From contig NZ_JARDUB010000003.1 in NCBI RefSeq assembly GCF_029360665.1, positions 434,001 through 498,000 on the forward strand: a stretch of DNA of 64,000 bases, read 5' to 3'. The stretch comes from Eudoraea chungangensis (GTDB taxonomy: Bacteria > Bacteroidota > Bacteroidia > Flavobacteriales > Flavobacteriaceae). The translations under genes were made by a program, and so were the position numbers. Position 1 is the first letter of the stretch; each line of letters starts with the position of its first letter. Under the pieces are notes generated by a model, which saw nothing but the letters and a program-made list of their open reading frames with translations, did not search any database and was not told where the DNA came from. Below, one piece after another: positions 43,784 to 52,737 of this stretch.

Positions 43784-44467
43784 ATGGCAGAACAAGTTTT
43801 ACATCTAAAAGAGGTTACCATTTTTCAAAAAGAGAACATGGTACTCCAAAATATTTCGCTAGAAGTAAAAAAAGGAGAATTTGTATACCTTATTGGTAAA
43901 ACAGGTAGTGGAAAGAGTAGTTTTATGAAAACGCTTTACGCCGATCTTCCATTAAAAAAGGGAATCGGAGAAATTGTGGGTTTTAATCTAAAAACCTTAA
44001 AAGAGAAAGACATCCCTTTTCTCAGAAGAAAACTTGGAATAGTTTTTCAAGATTTTAAACTTCTGTCGGATCGAAATATTCACAAAAATCTGGAATTTAT
44101 TCTGAAAGCGACTGGCTGGAAAGAGCAGGAAAAAATGAAGGTTCAGATTGAAAAAGTATTAGAGAAAGTAGGAATGAAAACCAAGGGGTTTAAATTTCCC
44201 CATGAACTATCTGGTGGAGAGCAACAAAGGGTTGCGATAGCCAGGGCCTTATTAAACGATCCGGAAATAATCTTGGCGGATGAGCCAACGGGTAACCTCG
44301 ATCCACAAACCAGTGTTGAAATAATGAAGGTATTGCAAGAAATTAATAAGGCCGGAAGGACCATTCTCATGGCAACGCATGACTATGCACTCTTATTAAA
44401 ATACCCTTCTAAAACACTTAAATGCGACGATTCTAAAGTCTTTGAAGTAATCCAAAAAGCAATTTAG
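43784..44467 (+). CDS. ftsE: Cell-division ABC ATPase FtsE
   Basis: FtsE is the ATPase of the FtsEX complex that regulates peptidoglycan hydrolases at the septum. The 227 residues carry Walker A GKTGSGKSS (about 39-47), Q-loop VFQDFKLL, a perfect signature LSGGEQQRVA and Walker B IILADEPTGNLD, with ATHDYALL as H-loop. The FVYLIGKTGSGKSSFMKTLY pattern and the Q-loop suit FtsE rather than a generic LolD. ftsX is not adjacent. The gene is divergent from the TPR gene. TACTTTTA, one base off the -7 consensus, lies just upstream. Confidence 0.85.
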   Translation: MAEQVLHLKEVTIFQKENMVLQNISLEVKKGEFVYLIGKTGSGKSSFMKTLYADLPLKKGIGEIVGFNLKTLKEKDIPFLRRKLGIVFQDFKLLSDRNIHKNLEFILKATGWKEQEKMKVQIEKVLEKVGMKTKGFKFPHELSGGEQQRVAIARALLNDPEIILADEPTGNLDPQTSVEIMKVLQEINKAGRTILMATHDYALLLKYPSKTLKCDDSKVFEVIQKAI

Positions 44468-44609: not shown

Positions 44610-46277
44610 ATGAGAACCAAGTATTGTTTATTACTATCCGCTTTCTTAATGTTTGTCCTCTCCTGTAAGGAAGATTCTAAACCATTAGAAGTTACCGAAA
44701 AAATAGAAGTTCGCGAATGGAATCCCGAGGATACCAGAAGTATTACGGGCCTTACCGCAGAGCGAGGCCTAAAAGAAAAAACACCTAACGCCACCCCTGG
44801 TTTTATTATGATAGGCCCGCCGGAAAGCACTAAAACCCATCTGATAAATTTAGACGGCCAGGTAGTTCATAGTTGGGAAGGCGAACTTGCCGTGGTAAAT
44901 ATGTATTTAAAACCTAATGGAAACTTAGTTAGGTTAGAAGTAGACCCCGACTTCCCAACATTTGCCGCTGGCGGACAAGCCGGAAGGATTAGAGAATATG
45001 ACTGGGAAGGAAATAAACTATGGGATTTTGAATGGGCTGATGAAAACCAGCTTATACATCACGATATTGAATTACTTCCAAATGGTAATGTTTTGGCCAT
45101 TTCTTACGAAGCCAAAACCGAGGAAGAAGTTATCCAGGCAGGTAGAGATCCAAAGCATGTAAACCAGGCCGGGCTCTGGCCAGATAAGATTATAGAAATT
45201 AAACCTTCTGGGGCAACGGAGGGAGAGATCGTATGGGAATGGCACATGTGGGATCACTTGATACAGGAAATTGATAGCACAAAAGATAATTATGGCATTG
45301 TTTCAGAACATCCGAGAAAGATAAACTTTAATGTTTTTGGGGAAGCAGGGCCTGAAATGACCGAAGAACAAATAGAGCAAGGCAAAAAAATGGGATTCAT
45401 GACTGCTAATGCCACTGTAGACAACGTGCATTCAGATTTTACGCATACGAATGCCATTGCCTACAATGAAACTCTAGACCAAATAGCTATAAGTGTCCCC
45501 GCCTACAGTGAAATTATGATAATTGATCATAGTACCACTACAAAAGAAGCCAAAGGAAGTACTGGTGGTAAATGGGGTCATGGAGGGGATCTTCTTTATC
45601 GTTGGGGTAATCCTGCCAATTATGGCCGAGGCACAAAGGAAGATCAAAAGCTGTTTTTTGAACACGACGTAAAATGGATTCCAAAAGGCTATCCCGGGGA
45701 GGGCCATTTGATGGTATTTAATAACGATATTGAGCATCCGGATAATAAGGTTCCTTCTATGTGGGCAATTTTAATGACCAGCAAATCTCCGGAAGTGGAG
45801 GCACCCGTAGGCGTGTTAGGAAACCACAGTGCTGTTTTTGAACTGGAACCTCCCACAAATAGTGATGGTGCCTACATCTTGAAAGAAAACAAATCTTTCG
45901 GACCAGATTCACCGGTATGGACGTATACCGCAGCTGATAAATATTCGTTTTACTCTGCCTTTGTCTCCGGTGCCCATCGAATGCAAAATGGAAATACCTT
46001 AATTACCTCCGGGGCTAAAGGAAGAATAATGGAGGTCACGGCAAACGGGGAAATAGTCTGGGAATACTGGAACCCTTATAACGATCAATACAAGATGCCC
46101 GACGGGACAGTGGCTTCTCCAATAGGCCCGTTTAAGTATATGCAGTTTAGGGCAACACATTTTACAGAAGACTACCCAGCCTTTGCGGATAAAAGCTTAA
46201 ACGCATTAGAAATACAACCAAAACCCTTTATCTTTAAAATGCCACCCCCACCTATAACCCAGGATAGTCTACAATAA
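44610..46277 (+). CDS. Arylsulfotransferase (ASST)-like lipoprotein
   Basis: A 555-residue exported lipoprotein: the signal peptide MRTKYCLLLSAFLMFVLSC ends in a lipobox at Cys19. The body is a beta-propeller-like ASST domain, with repeats GQVVHSWEGELAVVNMYLKP, LIHHDIELLPNGNVLAISYE, FTHTNAIAYNETLDQIAISV and MQNGNTLITSGAKGRIMEV. Known bacterial ASSTs move sulfate between phenolic compounds through a sulfohistidine without PAPS; several conserved His are present here, but which one is catalytic cannot be told. A P-loop sulfotransferase follows 40 nt later. Confidence 0.82.
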   Translation: MRTKYCLLLSAFLMFVLSCKEDSKPLEVTEKIEVREWNPEDTRSITGLTAERGLKEKTPNATPGFIMIGPPESTKTHLINLDGQVVHSWEGELAVVNMYLKPNGNLVRLEVDPDFPTFAAGGQAGRIREYDWEGNKLWDFEWADENQLIHHDIELLPNGNVLAISYEAKTEEEVIQAGRDPKHVNQAGLWPDKIIEIKPSGATEGEIVWEWHMWDHLIQEIDSTKDNYGIVSEHPRKINFNVFGEAGPEMTEEQIEQGKKMGFMTANATVDNVHSDFTHTNAIAYNETLDQIAISVPAYSEIMIIDHSTTTKEAKGSTGGKWGHGGDLLYRWGNPANYGRGTKEDQKLFFEHDVKWIPKGYPGEGHLMVFNNDIEHPDNKVPSMWAILMTSKSPEVEAPVGVLGNHSAVFELEPPTNSDGAYILKENKSFGPDSPVWTYTAADKYSFYSAFVSGAHRMQNGNTLITSGAKGRIMEVTANGEIVWEYWNPYNDQYKMPDGTVASPIGPFKYMQFRATHFTEDYPAFADKSLNALEIQPKPFIFKMPPPPITQDSLQ

Positions 46278-46317
46278 ATAAAAGCGCAATTAATTACTAA
46301 TTTAAAACTACCATAAA

Positions 46318-46998
46318 ATGTCTATTAAAATTATAGGAGCCGGATTGCCAAGGACCGGCACAAATACATTGAAACAAAGCTTGGAACAGCTAGGTTACAA
46401 CCATGTTTACCATATGAAAGAATTATTGGTAAATCCTGAGAAACTTCATTATTGGAAGACCCTGGATGATACTGGGAATACAGACTGGGATGCCCTTTAC
46501 AAAGGTTATGATGGTACCGTGGATTTTCCCGGTTACCCATGGTATAAAGAGCATATGAAAAGATATCCCGAAGCCAAAGTAATCCTTACGGTACGCGATT
46601 TTGACGCCTGGTATAAGAGTGTAGACAGTACCGTTTTCAGGGCCGGGCCTCAGACACCAGCTGAAAAGATAAAGATGATTGGAAAACTGCTTGGCAGTGC
46701 CAGGGCGCGAAAAGTGGTTAAATGTATTAAATGGTTTAAAAAAGTCTTTTTTGCTGAAAGACTACAAGGAAATTTTGGCGATAAAGCACACGCAAAAAAA
46801 TTCTGGGAAGAACATCTAGCCGATGTAAAAGCAAGTGTCCCTGAAGACAAATTACTGGTTTATGATGTGCGAGATGGCTGGGCACCGCTTTGTAAATTTC
46901 TAGGTTTGGAAGAACCTGCCGAACCTCTTCCTCATTTAAATAAAAAAGAGAATTTTAAAGCTATGCTTCCCAAATTAATGAAAGGGGAAATGGTCTAA
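46318..46998 (+). CDS. P-loop sulfotransferase family protein
   Basis: A 226-residue cytoplasmic protein of the sulfotransferase superfamily. The 5'-phosphosulfate-binding loop GLPRTGTNTLKQSLEQLGY is at residues 8-26, and the 3'-phosphate-binding part is seen in KVILTVRDFDAWYKSV (about 85-100). Such enzymes use PAPS to sulfate hydroxyls. The acceptor is unknown. It is 40 nt downstream of the ASST-like lipoprotein gene and ends in a terminator, so the two probably form an operon. Confidence 0.85.
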   Translation: MSIKIIGAGLPRTGTNTLKQSLEQLGYNHVYHMKELLVNPEKLHYWKTLDDTGNTDWDALYKGYDGTVDFPGYPWYKEHMKRYPEAKVILTVRDFDAWYKSVDSTVFRAGPQTPAEKIKMIGKLLGSARARKVVKCIKWFKKVFFAERLQGNFGDKAHAKKFWEEHLADVKASVPEDKLLVYDVRDGWAPLCKFLGLEEPAEPLPHLNKKENFKAMLPKLMKGEMV

Positions 46999-47031
46999 TT
47001 TGGAAAATCTCGTTGTAACTAATAATTACAG

Positions 47032-47061
47032 ATACCCCTGAGCAAAAAGCATAAGGGGTAT
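47032..47061 (+). terminator. Terminator after the sulfotransferase gene
   Basis: ATACCCCT pairs with AGGGGTAT across a 14-nt A-rich loop, followed by TTCTTTT. It lies between the sulfotransferase and MFS genes. Confidence 0.65.
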
Positions 47062-47080
47062 TTCTTTTAAACTATATGAT

Positions 47081-48244
47081 ATGAATACAGAAAGCTGGCA
47101 GGTAAAAGCTACCTTACTACTGGTAAGCAGTCTCACCATAATGTCTATGATTACAATATCCGCGTCCTTACCGGATATGACAAAGACTTTCTCATATTTA
47201 GCCAAGGCCGAAGGTTTGGTTAAACTTACACTTTCCTTTCCTGCTTTATTTATAGCCCTTACCGCCATAGTCGCAGGTAAGTTTATTGACAAATTTGGAC
47301 GTTTACGGCTATTAAATGCCGCCCTTATTTTGTATATTCTTGGAGGCACCTCCGGGTATTACCTAGATAATATTTACCTGATTCTTGCCGGCAGGGCTCT
47401 TTTAGGGATAAGTGTTGGTATCTCTATGACGATAGTTACTACCCTCATAGCCGATTACTACCAAGGTAAAGCCAGGCAAAAGTTTGCCGGCTTGCAGATT
47501 GCTGTAATGTCGCTTGGAGGAATTATTTTTATTACCCTCGGAGGGGTTTTGGCAGATATATCTTGGAGAATCCCTTTTTTACTCTATCTATTCCCTTTGG
47601 TTATTCTTCCGATGACTGGTCTTTATTTAAAAGAACCCAAATCAGACCTGCAACAAAAAACAGCTACGGATACCATAAAATCCCCTAGAATTATTTGGTT
47701 GGTGTTTTTTAATGTAATGCTTATGTGGATACTTTTCTTCCTAATTCCAGTACAAATTCCTTTCTATTTAAAATCTATAGGAATAGAAAAAAATAGCCTT
47801 ATCGGTATAGCTATTGCCTCGAGTACATTTTTTTCTGCAATATCTTCTATTTCCTTTTCTAAAATCAAGGATCGTCTTAGTTTTCAGCAAGTATTTAGCT
47901 TAGGCTATTTTCTTATGGCTCTGTCCTTTATTGTAATAGCATTTGGAAATAGCTATTTAATGGTAATGCTTGGAATGCTTTTAGCGGGTCTGGGCATGGG
48001 AGTTATGATCCCAAATGCCAATATTTGGGTAATGCAATTGGCCCCGGAAAAGATTAGAGGACAAGAAATCGGAAGACTAACTACCTTTTGGTTTATGGGA
48101 CAGTTCCTATCTCCCCTTCTTTTGTTACCTTTTTTGGGAATTCTTTCAGAATCGGAGTTATTCTCTTATCTATCGTATATTCTATTATTCTTGAGTTTGT
48201 TTTTCTTCGTGTTTCATTACGTATACCAAAGAAAAAATTCCTAG
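47081..48244 (+). CDS. MFS transporter
   Basis: A 387-residue, 12-helix carrier of the major facilitator superfamily. Motif A appears as GKFIDKFGRLRLL (about residues 65-77) after LTAIVAG, and the second half has the matching FSKIKDRLSFQQV. The C-terminal half contains LGMLLAGLGMGVMIPNANIW. This pattern suits drug/H+ antiport-like or sugar-efflux-like MFS proteins; the substrate is unknown. A terminator separates it from the sulfotransferase genes, so it is likely a unit of its own. Confidence 0.82.
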   Translation: MNTESWQVKATLLLVSSLTIMSMITISASLPDMTKTFSYLAKAEGLVKLTLSFPALFIALTAIVAGKFIDKFGRLRLLNAALILYILGGTSGYYLDNIYLILAGRALLGISVGISMTIVTTLIADYYQGKARQKFAGLQIAVMSLGGIIFITLGGVLADISWRIPFLLYLFPLVILPMTGLYLKEPKSDLQQKTATDTIKSPRIIWLVFFNVMLMWILFFLIPVQIPFYLKSIGIEKNSLIGIAIASSTFFSAISSISFSKIKDRLSFQQVFSLGYFLMALSFIVIAFGNSYLMVMLGMLLAGLGMGVMIPNANIWVMQLAPEKIRGQEIGRLTTFWFMGQFLSPLLLLPFLGILSESELFSYLSYILLFLSLFFFVFHYVYQRKNS

Positions 48245-48328
48245 ACCTAACCAAGCTTTGTTTTAGCAAATAAGTAAAGGCCTACTTTTTTTGTAAATTT
48301 AATACCACAAAAAATAAATTTTGGCCCA

Positions 48329-49129
48329 ATGTATGCTAACAAAGAAAAAAAGGGGAGTGTGTTTCTCTATTTGCTTCTGTTTATAATTTCGATTGTACTC
48401 TTGGTGGTAACGGGGCCTTTGGGGTTTGTATTTGGTGTTTTCTATTCTTTATTTAAAAAAGGTATTCCAGGACTCGGTAATTATCTTCTAGAAATCGCCG
48501 TTTCTATAGACCAATTGGGAAATGTACAAATGCAATATCTATTAAATGTACTTTGGTTAAAAAAAGGAGCTTATCCTTTTGGCAATAGGGACGAGACTAT
48601 ATCTAGTGCTCTGGGGCGTAATAAAAAGCTAGGTACCTTAAGCAAAATTGGCCTTATCATAGATCGTTTTCTAGATTTTCTGGATCCCAATCATTCCCTC
48701 AATTCAATAGACCAGTATATAGAACCTAGCAAAGACATTTTAGAAGTCGTGGTCTGGATTTATATACAGGACTATCGCATTTTATGTACACGAAGTAGAG
48801 ACAAGCAGGTTTATTTTATCCCTGGCGGTAAGAAAGAAAGAGACGAAAACAAAATAGTAGCTCTGCGCAGAGAGATTAAAGAAGAGTTAAATGTTAGATT
48901 AATTGAAAACTCCATTAAAAAAGTGGGTGTTTTTGAAGGCCCGGCCGAGGGATATCCCAGTGGAAAACTAGTAAGACTGCACTGTTTTAAGGCAACTTTT
49001 GAGGGAGAACTACTTCCTTCTTCGGAAATTGAAGAATTAGTGTGGTTGTCTTATCAAGACATCCAAATGCTTGCTCCTGTTGATCGTCAAATTTTTGATT
49101 TTCTTAAAAAGAAAAAATACCTCCGATAA
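48329..49129 (+). CDS. Membrane domain fused to a Nudix hydrolase
   Basis: A 266-residue two-part protein. The N-terminal half (about 1-130) has one or two membrane helices (about 11-42), then SIDQLGN (59-65), FGNRDETIS (84-92) and LDPNHSLNSI (118-127). I recall similar motifs in small membrane proteins of bacteria and phages. The C-terminal half (about 135-262) is a Nudix domain: the box begins at G167 with E173 and REIKEEL (181-187), though the usual late Gly of the box is Asn. Nudix enzymes cleave nucleoside-diphosphate-linked compounds. The combination would place the hydrolase at the membrane. Confidence 0.78.
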   Translation: MYANKEKKGSVFLYLLLFIISIVLLVVTGPLGFVFGVFYSLFKKGIPGLGNYLLEIAVSIDQLGNVQMQYLLNVLWLKKGAYPFGNRDETISSALGRNKKLGTLSKIGLIIDRFLDFLDPNHSLNSIDQYIEPSKDILEVVVWIYIQDYRILCTRSRDKQVYFIPGGKKERDENKIVALRREIKEELNVRLIENSIKKVGVFEGPAEGYPSGKLVRLHCFKATFEGELLPSSEIEELVWLSYQDIQMLAPVDRQIFDFLKKKKYLR

Positions 49130-49159: not shown

Positions 49160-49167
49160 TACTTTTG
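49160..49167 (+). promoter_or_regulatory. Bacteroidota -7 promoter element for the ROK glucokinase gene
   Basis: TACTTTTG matches TAnnTTTG exactly, 36 nt upstream of the ATG at 49203. Confidence 0.45.
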
Positions 49168-49202: not shown

Positions 49203-49952
49203 ATGGTAGTACTTGGAATAGATATTGGAGGATCTGGCATGAAGGGTGCCTTGGTAAATTCAATTACGGGTGAAATGTTAACTGAACGGCACCGTATTCC
49301 CACCCCAAAATCGCGGAAGCCAAAAGAGATGGCGGCGGTGGTAAAAGAAATTGTGGCGCATTTTAATCACAAAGGTCCTGTGGGATGTGGTTTTCCCACG
49401 GTCATAAGACACGGTGTTTGCAAATCACAAGGGAATCTTCACAAAAAATGGCTAAATCTAAATGTAAAAGAACTTTTTAGTGAAGCTACTGGCTTACCGG
49501 TAACTGTTATCAATGATGCCGATGCGGCTGGTTATGCAACCATGAATTATGGTATTGGCAAAGGAAAAGAAGGTCTAGTTATTATGATTACCATTGGAAC
49601 TGGCCTCGGAAGCGGAGCATTTTTTAACGGGGAGTTAATTCCAAATTTTGAATTAGGACAGATTCCTTACAAAAAATACGAGAAGATTGAAGATTGGGCC
49701 GCTGCTTCAGCAAAAGAAAGAGAAGAACTTAGTTTTAAACAATGGGGTAAGCGTTTTAATAAATTCTTAGCCTACGTAGAACTATTAGTTTCTCCAGACC
49801 ATATAATCCTTGGTGGAGGTACTTCAAAACAATTCGATGAGTATAAAAAATATATCACTATCGATACCCCGGTAATACCTGCTGAATTAAGAAATCAGGC
49901 TGGAATTGTAGGTGCAGCCGCTGCGGCACTGCATGAAGCGCCGAGAGACTAA
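49203..49952 (+). CDS. ppgK: ROK-family kinase, likely polyphosphate glucokinase
   Basis: This 249-residue sugar kinase of the ROK family would phosphorylate glucose to glucose-6-phosphate. The phosphate-1 motif GIDIGGSGMKGALV is at residues 5-18, the catalytic base region is VINDADAAGYATM, and phosphate-2 is TIGTGLGSGAFFNGEL. The standard ROK zinc motif (CxCGxxGC) is absent, as in polyphosphate glucokinases, and the length and KWLNLNV segment fit that group. Use of polyphosphate rather than ATP is inferred. It converges with typA (18-nt gap). Confidence 0.82.
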   Translation: MVVLGIDIGGSGMKGALVNSITGEMLTERHRIPTPKSRKPKEMAAVVKEIVAHFNHKGPVGCGFPTVIRHGVCKSQGNLHKKWLNLNVKELFSEATGLPVTVINDADAAGYATMNYGIGKGKEGLVIMITIGTGLGSGAFFNGELIPNFELGQIPYKKYEKIEDWAAASAKEREELSFKQWGKRFNKFLAYVELLVSPDHIILGGGTSKQFDEYKKYITIDTPVIPAELRNQAGIVGAAAAALHEAPRD

Positions 49953-49970: not shown

Positions 49971-51770
49971 TTAGGCTATTTTATTTCGCTTGCGATCTAC
50001 TTCTTTTAGAAATATTTTGCGAAGTCTCAGATGTTTTGGTGTAACCTCTACATATTCATCTTTCTGAATATATTCCAAAGCCTCTTCCAAAGAAAATTTG
50101 ATGGCAGGTACAATTTTGGCCTTATCGTCTGCTCCGGCAGAACGTACATTACTTAACTTTTTGGTTTTCGTAATATTAATTACCATATCATCTCCTCTGG
50201 TGTTTTCACCTATAACCTGACCTTCGTAGATATCTTCACCCGGATCAATAAAGAATCTACCTCTGTCTTGCAATTTATCAATAGAATAAGGAATAGCCTT
50301 TCCATTTTCCATAGAAACCAGAGAACCGTTTTGTCTTTGTGGTATATCACCTTTCATTGGCTGGTACTCTAAAAAGCGATGTGCCATTATTGCTTCCCCA
50401 GCCGTAGCCGTCAAAAGCTGATTACGAAGACCAATAATACCTCTAGAAGGAATGATAAACTCGCATACCATTCTATCGCCTTTTGCCTCCATACTGGTCA
50501 TTTCACCCTTTCTAATAGAAACCATTTCTACTGCCTTTCCAGATACTTCTTCCGGCAAGTCAATCGTCAGCTGTTCTACTGGTTCGCACTGCACACCATC
50601 AACAGTTTTAATAATAACCTGCGGCTGTCCAATTTGAAGTTCATAACCTTCTCTACGCATTGTTTCAATAAGTACCGATAAATGCAATACCCCTCTACCA
50701 AAAACCATAAACTTATCGGCACTGTCGGTTTCCTCAACACGCAGGGCAAGATTCTTTTCTAACTCTTTTGAAAGTCTTTCTTTTATATGACGAGAAGTAA
50801 CAAATTTACCATCCTTTCCAAAAAACGGACTATCATTTATGGTAAATAACATACTCATGGTTGGTTCATCTATAGCAATAGACTTTAGACCTTCCGGATT
50901 TTCTATATCTGCAATGGTATCCCCAATTTCAAATCCTTCCAAACCAACAATTGCACAAATGTCACCTGTTTTAACTTCGCTTACCTTCTTACGTCCTAAG
51001 CCTTCAAAAGTAAATAATTCCTTAACTTTCGACTTTACAATTTTTCCATCTCTTTTTACCAAAGAAATTTGCTGTCCTTCTTTTAAGGAACCCCTTTGAA
51101 GTCGACCAATAGCAATTCTTCCGGTAAAAGAAGAATAATCTAAAGAGGTAATTAGCATCTGTGTGGTACCTTCTTTAGCTTCAAAACTCGGAATGTGCTC
51201 AACAACCATTTCCAATAGAGGCTCAATAGAATCTGTTTCATTTTGCCAGTCTTCACTCATCCAGTTATTTTTGGCCGAGCCATAAACCGTTGGGAAGTCT
51301 AGCTGCCATTCCTCTGCTCCTAGTTCGAACATCAGATCAAAGACTTTTTCATGTACTTCCTCTGGTGTACAATTCTCTTTGTCGACTTTGTTAATTACCA
51401 CACACGGCTTTAATCCCAAATCTATCGCCTTTTGTAAAACAAAGCGCGTTTGTGGCATAGGACCTTCAAAGGCATCAACCAAAAGCAATACCCCGTCTGC
51501 CATATTTAATACACGTTCCACTTCTCCTCCGAAGTCGGCGTGACCGGGAGTATCTATAATATTGATCTTAGTATCTTTATAGGTAACTGAAACGTTCTTA
51601 GACACAATGGTGATACCCCGTTCTCTTTCTAAATCGTTATTATCTAAAATGAGTTCTCCTGTTTTTTCGTTCTCACGAAATAACTGACAGTAGTGCAATA
51701 TTTTATCCACCAAGGTTGTTTTACCGTGGTCTACGTGGGCTATGATGGCAATATTTTTTGTTTCAGACAT
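49971..51770 (-). CDS. typA: Translational GTPase TypA/BipA
   Basis: TypA is a ribosome-binding GTPase linked to 50S assembly and stress growth. Starting at the ATG at 51770 the protein is 599 residues: [20 protein letters not shown] gives the usual N-terminus with G1. A longer frame from 51812 is rejected because the promoter element 51789-51796 lies inside it. The other G motifs are [17 protein letters not shown] and NKVDKEN; the switch I region has RERGIT. The C-terminal domains contain the BipA-specific segment [20 protein letters not shown]. Confidence 0.96.
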
Positions 51771-51788
51771 CTTTTTGTTTTGAGCCTG

Positions 51789-51796
51789 CAAAGATA
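51789..51796 (-). promoter_or_regulatory. Bacteroidota -7 promoter element for typA
   Basis: The minus strand reads TATCTTTG, an exact TAnnTTTG match, 19 nt upstream of the chosen ATG. It supports the shorter typA start. Confidence 0.5.
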
Positions 51797-51915
51797 CTCC
51801 TATTTTTGGCATGTAGTTATAAAGTTGTGTTATTTTTATTTTATTGATTTAGAGGACTTAACACCTTTGCCGTCTCCATAAAAAAACAAGTATATTTACT
51901 CCCTAACCTCTCGTT

Positions 51916-52737
51916 ATGAAATTAGATCGTATTCCAAACATAAAAAATCTAGAATCTCAGAATTTTTTCTTGCTCGCGGGGCCATGTGCTATAGAAGGTG
52001 AAGCGATGGCTTTGAGGATTGCTGAAGAGATTGTGAACATTACTACAAGGCTACGCATTCCTTATGTTTTTAAAGGAAGTTTTAAGAAAGCGAACCGCAG
52101 CAGAGTAGATTCTTTTACTGGAATTGGGGATGAAAAAGCTCTAAAAATATTACAAAAGGTAAGCCAGACCTTTGAAGTCCCTACTGTAACAGATGTTCAT
52201 ACCAATGAAGATGCGGCCAAAGCTGCAGAATATGTAGATATACTTCAAATACCAGCCTTTTTGGTAAGACAGACAGATTTAGTAGTAGCTGCAGCTGAGA
52301 CTGGAAAAACAGTAAACTTAAAGAAAGGACAATTTATGAGTCCGGAGAGCATGAAGCATGCTGTAAACAAAGTACTGGACACACAAAATGAACAAGCTAT
52401 GATCACCGACCGGGGAACCATGTTCGGCTATCAGGATATGGTTGTAGATTTTAGAGGTATTCCCACTATGAAAAATTACGCACCTGTGGTGCTAGACGTT
52501 ACCCATTCTTTACAGCAACCTAACCAAAGCTCAGGAGTAACTGGAGGAAGGCCAGCATTGATAAGCACCATAGCTCAGGCGGGCATCGCTGCCGGGGTAG
52601 ACGGTATATTTATTGAAACCCATTTTGATCCGGCAAATGCTAAGAGTGATGGGGCGAACATGCTACCGCTAGAGCAGTTAGAGCGCCTATTAACCAATTT
52701 GGTGGCGCTTAAACAAACAGTAAATAAACTGAATTAA
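51916..52737 (+). CDS. kdsA: 3-deoxy-8-phosphooctulonate synthase (KDO-8-P synthase)
   Basis: KdsA joins phosphoenolpyruvate and arabinose-5-phosphate to give KDO-8-phosphate for the lipid A inner core. The 273-residue TIM barrel has AGPCAIEG (about residues 20-27), FKGSFKKANRSR, TDVHTNEDA, QIPAFLVRQTDLV, NLKKGQFMSP, DRGTMFGYQDMVVDFRGIP and DVTHSLQQPN. It is close to typA in opposite orientation and 57 nt upstream of the sulfatase gene. Confidence 0.97.
   Translation: MKLDRIPNIKNLESQNFFLLAGPCAIEGEAMALRIAEEIVNITTRLRIPYVFKGSFKKANRSRVDSFTGIGDEKALKILQKVSQTFEVPTVTDVHTNEDAAKAAEYVDILQIPAFLVRQTDLVVAAAETGKTVNLKKGQFMSPESMKHAVNKVLDTQNEQAMITDRGTMFGYQDMVVDFRGIPTMKNYAPVVLDVTHSLQQPNQSSGVTGGRPALISTIAQAGIAAGVDGIFIETHFDPANAKSDGANMLPLEQLERLLTNLVALKQTVNKLN

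Follow-up and report, generated by a model that had tools for sequence, protein, structure and literature searches.

Organisation of the locus

The window, by which is meant the whole 64,000-nucleotide stretch of Eudoraea chungangensis DNA analysed here, carries a gene whose product joins an N-terminal domain of a phage membrane type to a Nudix domain (Table 1). In a comparison of the full protein with Pfam the sole match was NUDIX (PF00293), over residues 140-256 (E 4e-12; 46.7 bits, cut-off 21.1). The N-terminal 130 residues matched no Pfam model and gave one NCBIfam match, far under its cut-off. There is one strongly hydrophobic stretch in the N-terminal half (Kyte-Doolittle maximum 2.92 over 19 residues, scanning windows starting at 6-24), and as lysines lie on either side of it, the orientation of this half in the membrane could be either way. 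The motifs of the N-terminal half named in a preliminary description of the sequence are all present. A structure prediction, which that description had proposed as a check, was made for the full protein with AlphaFold (mean pLDDT 93.2, pTM 0.64). The model has helices at residues 11-67, 69-76, 91-101, 106-118 and 122-129, followed by the Nudix fold, and the N-terminal half is thereby predicted to be a long helix with a small helical bundle.

Table 1. Features of the fusion gene and its conserved neighbours, with positions in the window
Feature	Position	Strand	Description and basis
Fusion gene	48329..49129	+	266 aa, ATG start; phage-type membrane domain and Nudix domain (ORF, translation)
N-terminal domain, residues 1-135, phrog_3342-like	48329..48733	+	PHROG matches, 339 viral relatives, model helices
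Presumed membrane segment, the hydrophobic part of the long helix, approximately residues 11-43	48359..48457	+	Hydropathy, model
A57-x3-D61-Q-L-G64-N65-V motif	48497..48526	+	Conservation; one of the two search patterns for viral relatives
G85-N-R-D-E89-T90-I-S92-S-A-L-G96-R-N98 motif	48581..48622	+	Conservation; partly a search pattern
N-H122-S-L-N-S-I127-D motif	48689..48712	+	Conservation of H122; in no search pattern
Domain junction, residues 134-137	48728..48739	+	Start of the standalone Nudix in G026; ends of N-only genes
Nudix domain, residues 137-261	48737..49111	+	PF00293; best Foldseek matches ORF135 and MutT structures
Nudix box G167-V189, N188 for the late glycine	48827..48895	+	Sequence, alignment
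Polyphosphate-glucose phosphotransferase (ROK), conserved neighbour	49203..49952	+	NCBIfam NF045942 above cut-off; downstream of the fusion gene
ABC-transporter ATPase	43784..44467	+	PF00005; synteny; directly upstream of the fusion gene in several relatives

In the window the ABC ATPase gene is separated from the fusion gene by three inserted genes (44610-48244), which are absent from this place in most relatives and are also found in another genome of the same genus (G104). One of them encodes an MFS transporter by Pfam, and the other two we take to be arylsulfotransferase-like and sulfotransferase-like. In several relatives (L087, L089, L093, L094, L095, L033 and L034) a sulfatase-like gene of 491-566 aa, confirmed as sulfatase PF00884 for L087 only, lies between the fusion and glucokinase genes. 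Taken with the sulfotransferase-like genes of the window, these genes make the locus look like a site of recurrent gain and loss of sulfate-ester genes. Further downstream, 49971-51812 presumably encodes TypA and 51916-52737 presumably KdsA.

The glucokinase gene follows the fusion gene in 24 of the 26 loci that were fetched with long flanks, the exceptions being G677 and G638. This constancy would be expected if the fusion protein were a housekeeping partner of the adjacent polyphosphate glucokinase or ABC ATPase, any phage-like function having gone. However, the pair is split by the sulfatase-like genes in several relatives, and the glucokinase gene may have a promoter of its own. The Bacteroidetes -7 promoter motif is TANNTTTG, and TACTTTTG at 49160, between the two genes, matches it, although weakly, there being 44 such matches on the + strand of the window; ahead of the fusion gene no TANNTTTG match was found at 48180-48340. 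A housekeeping partnership of this kind therefore seems improbable.

Occurrence of the fusion

The sample comprised 397 genomes of the same bacterial family as the window, from 237 genera, and the N-terminal half was matched in 52 of these genomes and 35 of the genera. The 52 are made up of 42 readable genes of the chromosomal type, seven prophage-like copies, one gene that was kept apart because it is split over two contigs (G685, which likewise has no Nudix half), and two weak matches, G128 and G742, which were dropped before counting as the N-terminal half was not found again by BLAST in the fetched stretch. X033 and X034 were also dropped before the counts, being duplicates of G602 and G755.

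Both halves are present in one open reading frame in 36 of the 42 distinct genes of the chromosomal locus, and the homologues of the first sample are 51-62% identical to the protein of the window. A frameshift or a misjoining of two genes, the doubt that had been attached to the first proposal of a fusion, is therefore excluded, and the joining of a membrane-type domain to a Nudix domain is real; far from most close homologues lacking one half, the great part have both. Within one bacterial family, the fusion of a phage-family domain with a Nudix domain thus has a constant place on the chromosome.

The seven prophage-like copies (G123, G100, G580, G743, G625, G689 and G604) have a different setting, and in none of their fetched stretches was the glucokinase gene, the ABC ATPase gene or the gene corresponding to 49971 found. 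In G100 a GH19 endolysin-like gene lies three genes further on, and in G123 a tail-collar protein and thymidylate synthase are encoded nearby. A search of plasmids gave matches to the Nudix half only, among the 15 listed of 47 records. In the literature, searched as titles and abstract openings of mainly open-access papers, no description of the N-terminal domain or of its fusion with Nudix was found.

The Nudix domain

The Nudix box of the window reads G167-x5-E173-x7-R181-E182-I-K-E185-E186-L-N188-V and, as was originally noticed, it departs from the consensus only at the late glycine, for which it has asparagine (N188). A box was called intact when E173, R181, E182, E185 and E186 were all present and broken when at least one of these was lost. 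By this definition 24 of the 42 distinct genes have an intact box, 12 a broken one and six no Nudix half at all; G167, E173, R181, E182, E185 and E186 are invariant among the intact members. The late-glycine position in the 24 intact members is occupied by S (15), Q (3), N (2), T, K, E and G (one each). The loss of the glycine is not peculiar to the gene in the window, 23 of the 24 sharing it, and it is ruled out as the mark of an altered enzyme; judged from the alignment, the missing late glycine is a habit of the subfamily.

Some broken boxes differ by one changed residue, for example those of G669 and G605 (E186K) and G724 (E186V), and in G001, G011, G627, G274 and G376 most of the motif has gone. 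All 12 broken members have nevertheless kept their length (proteins of 271-304 aa). For this reason the broken Nudix halves look like pseudoenzymes and not debris, and the tail in these members still seems to be under selection for something. An annotation of NUDIX can evidently conceal pseudoenzymes.

The nearest relatives of solved structure are of the MutT and ORF135 type. Sequence comparison with the PDB gave 5x1x (E 3.4e-8) and 2rrk (E 1.5e-6), and a Foldseek search with the full-protein model gave E. coli ORF135 (2rrk, E 2e-10) and MutT proteins as the best PDB matches. The fold and the Nudix box are thus common to the fusion and to MutT and NudG (ORF135)-type pyrophosphatases. Unlike these, the fusion has a membrane-type N-terminal half, rarely keeps the late glycine and scores far below the NCBIfam cut-offs, reaching 34.3 bits with the NudG equivalog NF007834 (CTP pyrophosphohydrolase; cut-off 156) and 13.6 bits with the MutT equivalog TIGR00586 (cut-off 97.9). 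For the nucleotide-linked lipid or ppGpp-like substrate suggested in the preliminary description no pointer was found, the closest structures being those just named.

Also related is a subfamily of standalone Nudix proteins from Bacteroidota and other groups (L018 and L035, for instance), approximately 39-47% identical to the Nudix half of the fusion, whose members begin at a point that coincides with the fusion junction and are without the phage domain. A Nudix domain of the same subfamily occurs in G032 in a 322-aa protein (L098, 5911-6879), joined to a LOG (Lysine_decarbox) domain instead of the phage domain. LOG enzymes act on nucleoside monophosphates, and by analogy this second fusion may hint at nucleoside triphosphates as substrates of the Nudix half.

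Phage relatives of the N-terminal domain

The tie of the N-terminal half to small phage membrane proteins that the preliminary description had proposed was borne out when its first 130 residues were searched alone. They matched two PHROG families, phrog_3342 (E 9.5e-7, residues 49-124 against positions 7-68 of a 90-position profile) and phrog_23985 (E 6.4e-6), both of them phage proteins of unknown function. Viral contigs were then scanned with the N-terminal alignment (A1) and with the motif patterns DQLGNV and ETISSxLG, and 339 relatives were recovered. The best 80 of these were kept, and removal of 45 that were at least 80% alike left 35 uncultured loci.

In 33 dereplicated viral rows D61, F84, G85, T90, S92, G96, N98, L104, G108, L115 and H122 are conserved at 100% and N65, E89 and I91 at 97%; D61, N65 and H122 are also at 100% in the chromosomal rows. 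Because DQLGNV and ETISSxLG served as search patterns, it is H122, L104, G108 and L115 that stand as unbiased conserved positions. A profile match between A1 and the viral alignment A3 was left out as evidence, A1 containing phage and prophage rows.

The phage family formed by phrog_3342, with phrog_23985 and phrog_34710, shares with the N-terminal half the order of its helices and the motifs DQxGN, GN/GDETIS and HS/HC. The phage and prophage members examined are standalone proteins of 69-182 aa, whereas the bacterial copy is part of a Nudix fusion with a set place in the host chromosome. The model of one phage protein (L113; pLDDT 92.9, pTM 0.81) has a similar series of helices. With this model as query, Foldseek retrieved no PDB chain within E 10; against BFVD it gave three matches within E 0.001, whose listed names are uncharacterised or absent. 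A profile search for solved relatives of the N-terminal half gave none that was convincing (best E 0.16). In the searches made, no Pfam model, solved relative or described function was found for the phage family.

Gene context in phages

The 13 annotated phage records represent 12 groups, Slicky01 (E 2) having been dropped. In five of the 12 groups, as a raw count, a lysis gene comes next. Thus in Muminvirus the family gene is followed by a holin and then an amidase gene, and it adjoins a GH19 gene in Harreka_1, a spanin gene in PBR31, a pinholin gene in Percy/KSC and a peptidase M15 gene in Marinomonas YY. The words 'holin' and 'amidase' do not occur in the main text of the Muminvirus paper (PMC7077304). 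The other seven groups have no directly adjacent lysis gene. A cell wall hydrolase gene lies three genes away in X1, tail or tail-fibre genes lie one to three genes upstream in AcaML1, Pmp14, 587AP1, Aaphi23 and Pmp6, and in BUCT-ZZ01 the family gene overlaps the terminase gene.

A conserved partner was sought in the 35 uncultured loci, and the genes that recur are all tail-like or baseplate-like, those resembling tail-fibre genes in 12 of the 35 and mostly at position -2. In these loci lysis families are no commoner one or two genes away (near set, 130 proteins) than four to six genes away (far set, 138 proteins), neighbours over 900 aa (3 of 133 near, 2 of 140 far) having been left out. The near set contained Peptidase_M15_3, CHAP and Amidase_2 once each among all 20 Pfam families, and one amidase and two peptidase matches among the first 25 of the 123 PHROG families listed. 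The far set contained Amidase_2, M15_2, M15_3, M15_4 and VanY with one match each among the first 25 of 29 Pfam families listed, and two endolysin matches and one amidase match among the first 25 of 173 PHROG families listed.

It is conceivable that the phage family is a membrane protein of the holin cassette and that the bacterial copy, as a domesticated lysis accessory, acts on envelope integrity or cell-wall turnover. The five groups with adjacent lysis genes favour this, but the seven without, and the absence of enrichment in the uncultured loci, speak against it, and we think it unlikely. Membership of a lysis cassette is accordingly rejected as a firm conclusion. What can safely be stated is that the phage family gene is a late gene right behind the tail-fibre block, sometimes within a lysis cassette.

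The late region behind the tail fibres often holds accessory genes, and a small membrane-type protein in this position might also suggest superinfection exclusion or another form of phage defence, in which the host would have retained a phage membrane protein to block incoming phage, with the Nudix domain as effector. The Nudix half does match the PADLOC model PDC-S07 (51.8 bits). However, this model acts much like a generic Nudix model, matching seven of the eight Nudix proteins encoded elsewhere in the genome of the window (E up to 0.1, at most 35 bits), the N-terminal half has no PADLOC match, and the locus is syntenic with household genes. In the passages of PMC11514479 and PMC12813430 that deal with it, PDC-S07 is given only as a predicted defence candidate. 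As this is so, and as the model also matches other Nudix proteins, no defence role is claimed on the strength of PDC-S07, and defence in general appears very improbable.

Origin and history of the fusion

In a tree with 18 standalone relatives all 36 Nudix halves from fusions group in a single clade (support 96/93). G026 has a Nudix-only gene (L102, 5898-6290) at precisely the position that the fusion takes in syntenic genomes, flanked by the ABC ATPase and glucokinase genes. This gene falls outside the fused clade, and its product starts MIDKLAWIH where the fusions read IIDKLAWIH at the junction. The N-only genes stop at the junction or just past it.

The tree of the N-terminal half is weakly resolved. 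On the best tree the broken state takes 9 or more label changes and the absent state 4, of which well-supported branches force only one each; the Nudix tree has 6 changes for the broken state, of which 2 are forced. Because of the weak resolution of the N-terminal tree, some N-only members may be either losses or genes that precede the fusion. The simplest story is that a Nudix gene was already at the locus, that a phage-type gene was fused to it once and in frame, and that several losses followed. A phage origin of the N-terminal half is likely, judged from sequence comparisons, the direction from phage to chromosome being drawn from the breadth of occurrence rather than from a rooted tree.

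Conservation of the two halves and possible function

That natural members range from an intact through a broken to a missing Nudix half allows one to ask which half matters. In the alignment of the locus members 38 residues are invariant in the N-terminal half, over all rows, and six in the Nudix half, over the rows that have one. The mean pairwise identity is 72% in the N-terminal half (80% in its core) and 52% in the Nudix half. Median pairwise dN in the N-terminal half is 0.206 between intact members, 0.205 between intact and broken members and 0.196 between broken members, so that this half changes no faster whatever the state of the Nudix half. The corresponding values in the Nudix half are 0.353, 0.499 and 0.582. 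These medians are Nei-Gojobori counts over 276, 288 and 66 pairs that are not independent, with dS mostly high or saturated, and the label 'broken' in the comparison derives from the Nudix half itself. The N-terminal half is probably the functional core and what the gene is kept for.

These results bear on the idea, put forward in the preliminary description, that the point of the protein is a membrane-anchored Nudix enzyme. The N-terminal half would then be a mere anchor, tethering to the inner membrane a pyrophosphatase for nucleotides or nucleotide-lipids. The MutT-like fold and the box that is intact in the window and in 24 of the 42 members, with its key residues invariant there, agree with this idea. 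However, catalytic residues have been lost in 12 of the 42 and the whole Nudix half is missing from six, while the N-terminal half is strictly conserved, and as a consequence the idea is not supported. Many of the 38 invariant residues are in addition polar and lie outside the hydrophobic stretch, which is more than a plain anchor needs. An anchored enzyme is therefore a rather unlikely account of the protein.

We favour instead, with a probability of roughly 0.55, a domesticated phage membrane protein encoded beside a polyphosphate glucokinase gene; its MutT-like tail would be optional and would have turned into a pseudoenzyme on more than one occasion. The N-terminal half would derive from a phage gene of the region behind the tail fibres and would have been fused a single time, in frame, to a Nudix gene already beside the glucokinase gene. 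The long hydrophobic helix may anchor the protein in the inner membrane, and the helical bundle and Nudix domain would then be cytoplasmic; from hydropathy and the model, the chances that the bundle lies at the cytoplasmic face of the membrane seem about even. Its working surface could be formed by D61, N65, E89, T90, S92, N98 and H122, a putative site of binding or catalysis facing the membrane. In members with an intact Nudix box, that of the window included, the tail would hydrolyse a nucleoside triphosphate or similar diphosphate compound at the membrane, and in those with a broken box ligand binding by the fold may persist. For the bundle the likeliest kind of role would be one in the envelope, as a remnant of late phage functions, and any one molecular activity ascribed to the fusion protein must be considered doubtful. 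More speculatively, and with little expectation that it will hold in full, it could be proposed that a late membrane protein of phages with an undescribed fold was domesticated as an envelope protein in about 30 genera of a single Bacteroidota family, that its invariant D-N-E-T-S-N-H site is that of a membrane-face enzyme or receptor, and that the Nudix tail turned several times independently into a ligand-sensing pseudoenzyme.

As the bacterial copies lie at one locus, the gene could be deleted in a culturable relative. The fusion would in this way provide a handle on a phage family found in a corticovirus and in tailed phages whose hosts belong to several bacterial phyla. Shorter relatives are present in phages of Caulobacter, Acidithiobacillus, Xanthomonas, Marinomonas (the corticovirus), Pasteurellaceae and Synechococcus. 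The member in Marinomonas phage YY (L110, 2989-3225), of 78 aa, is annotated as DNA helicase UvrD, a name that is implausible for this protein and looks like a propagated misannotation.
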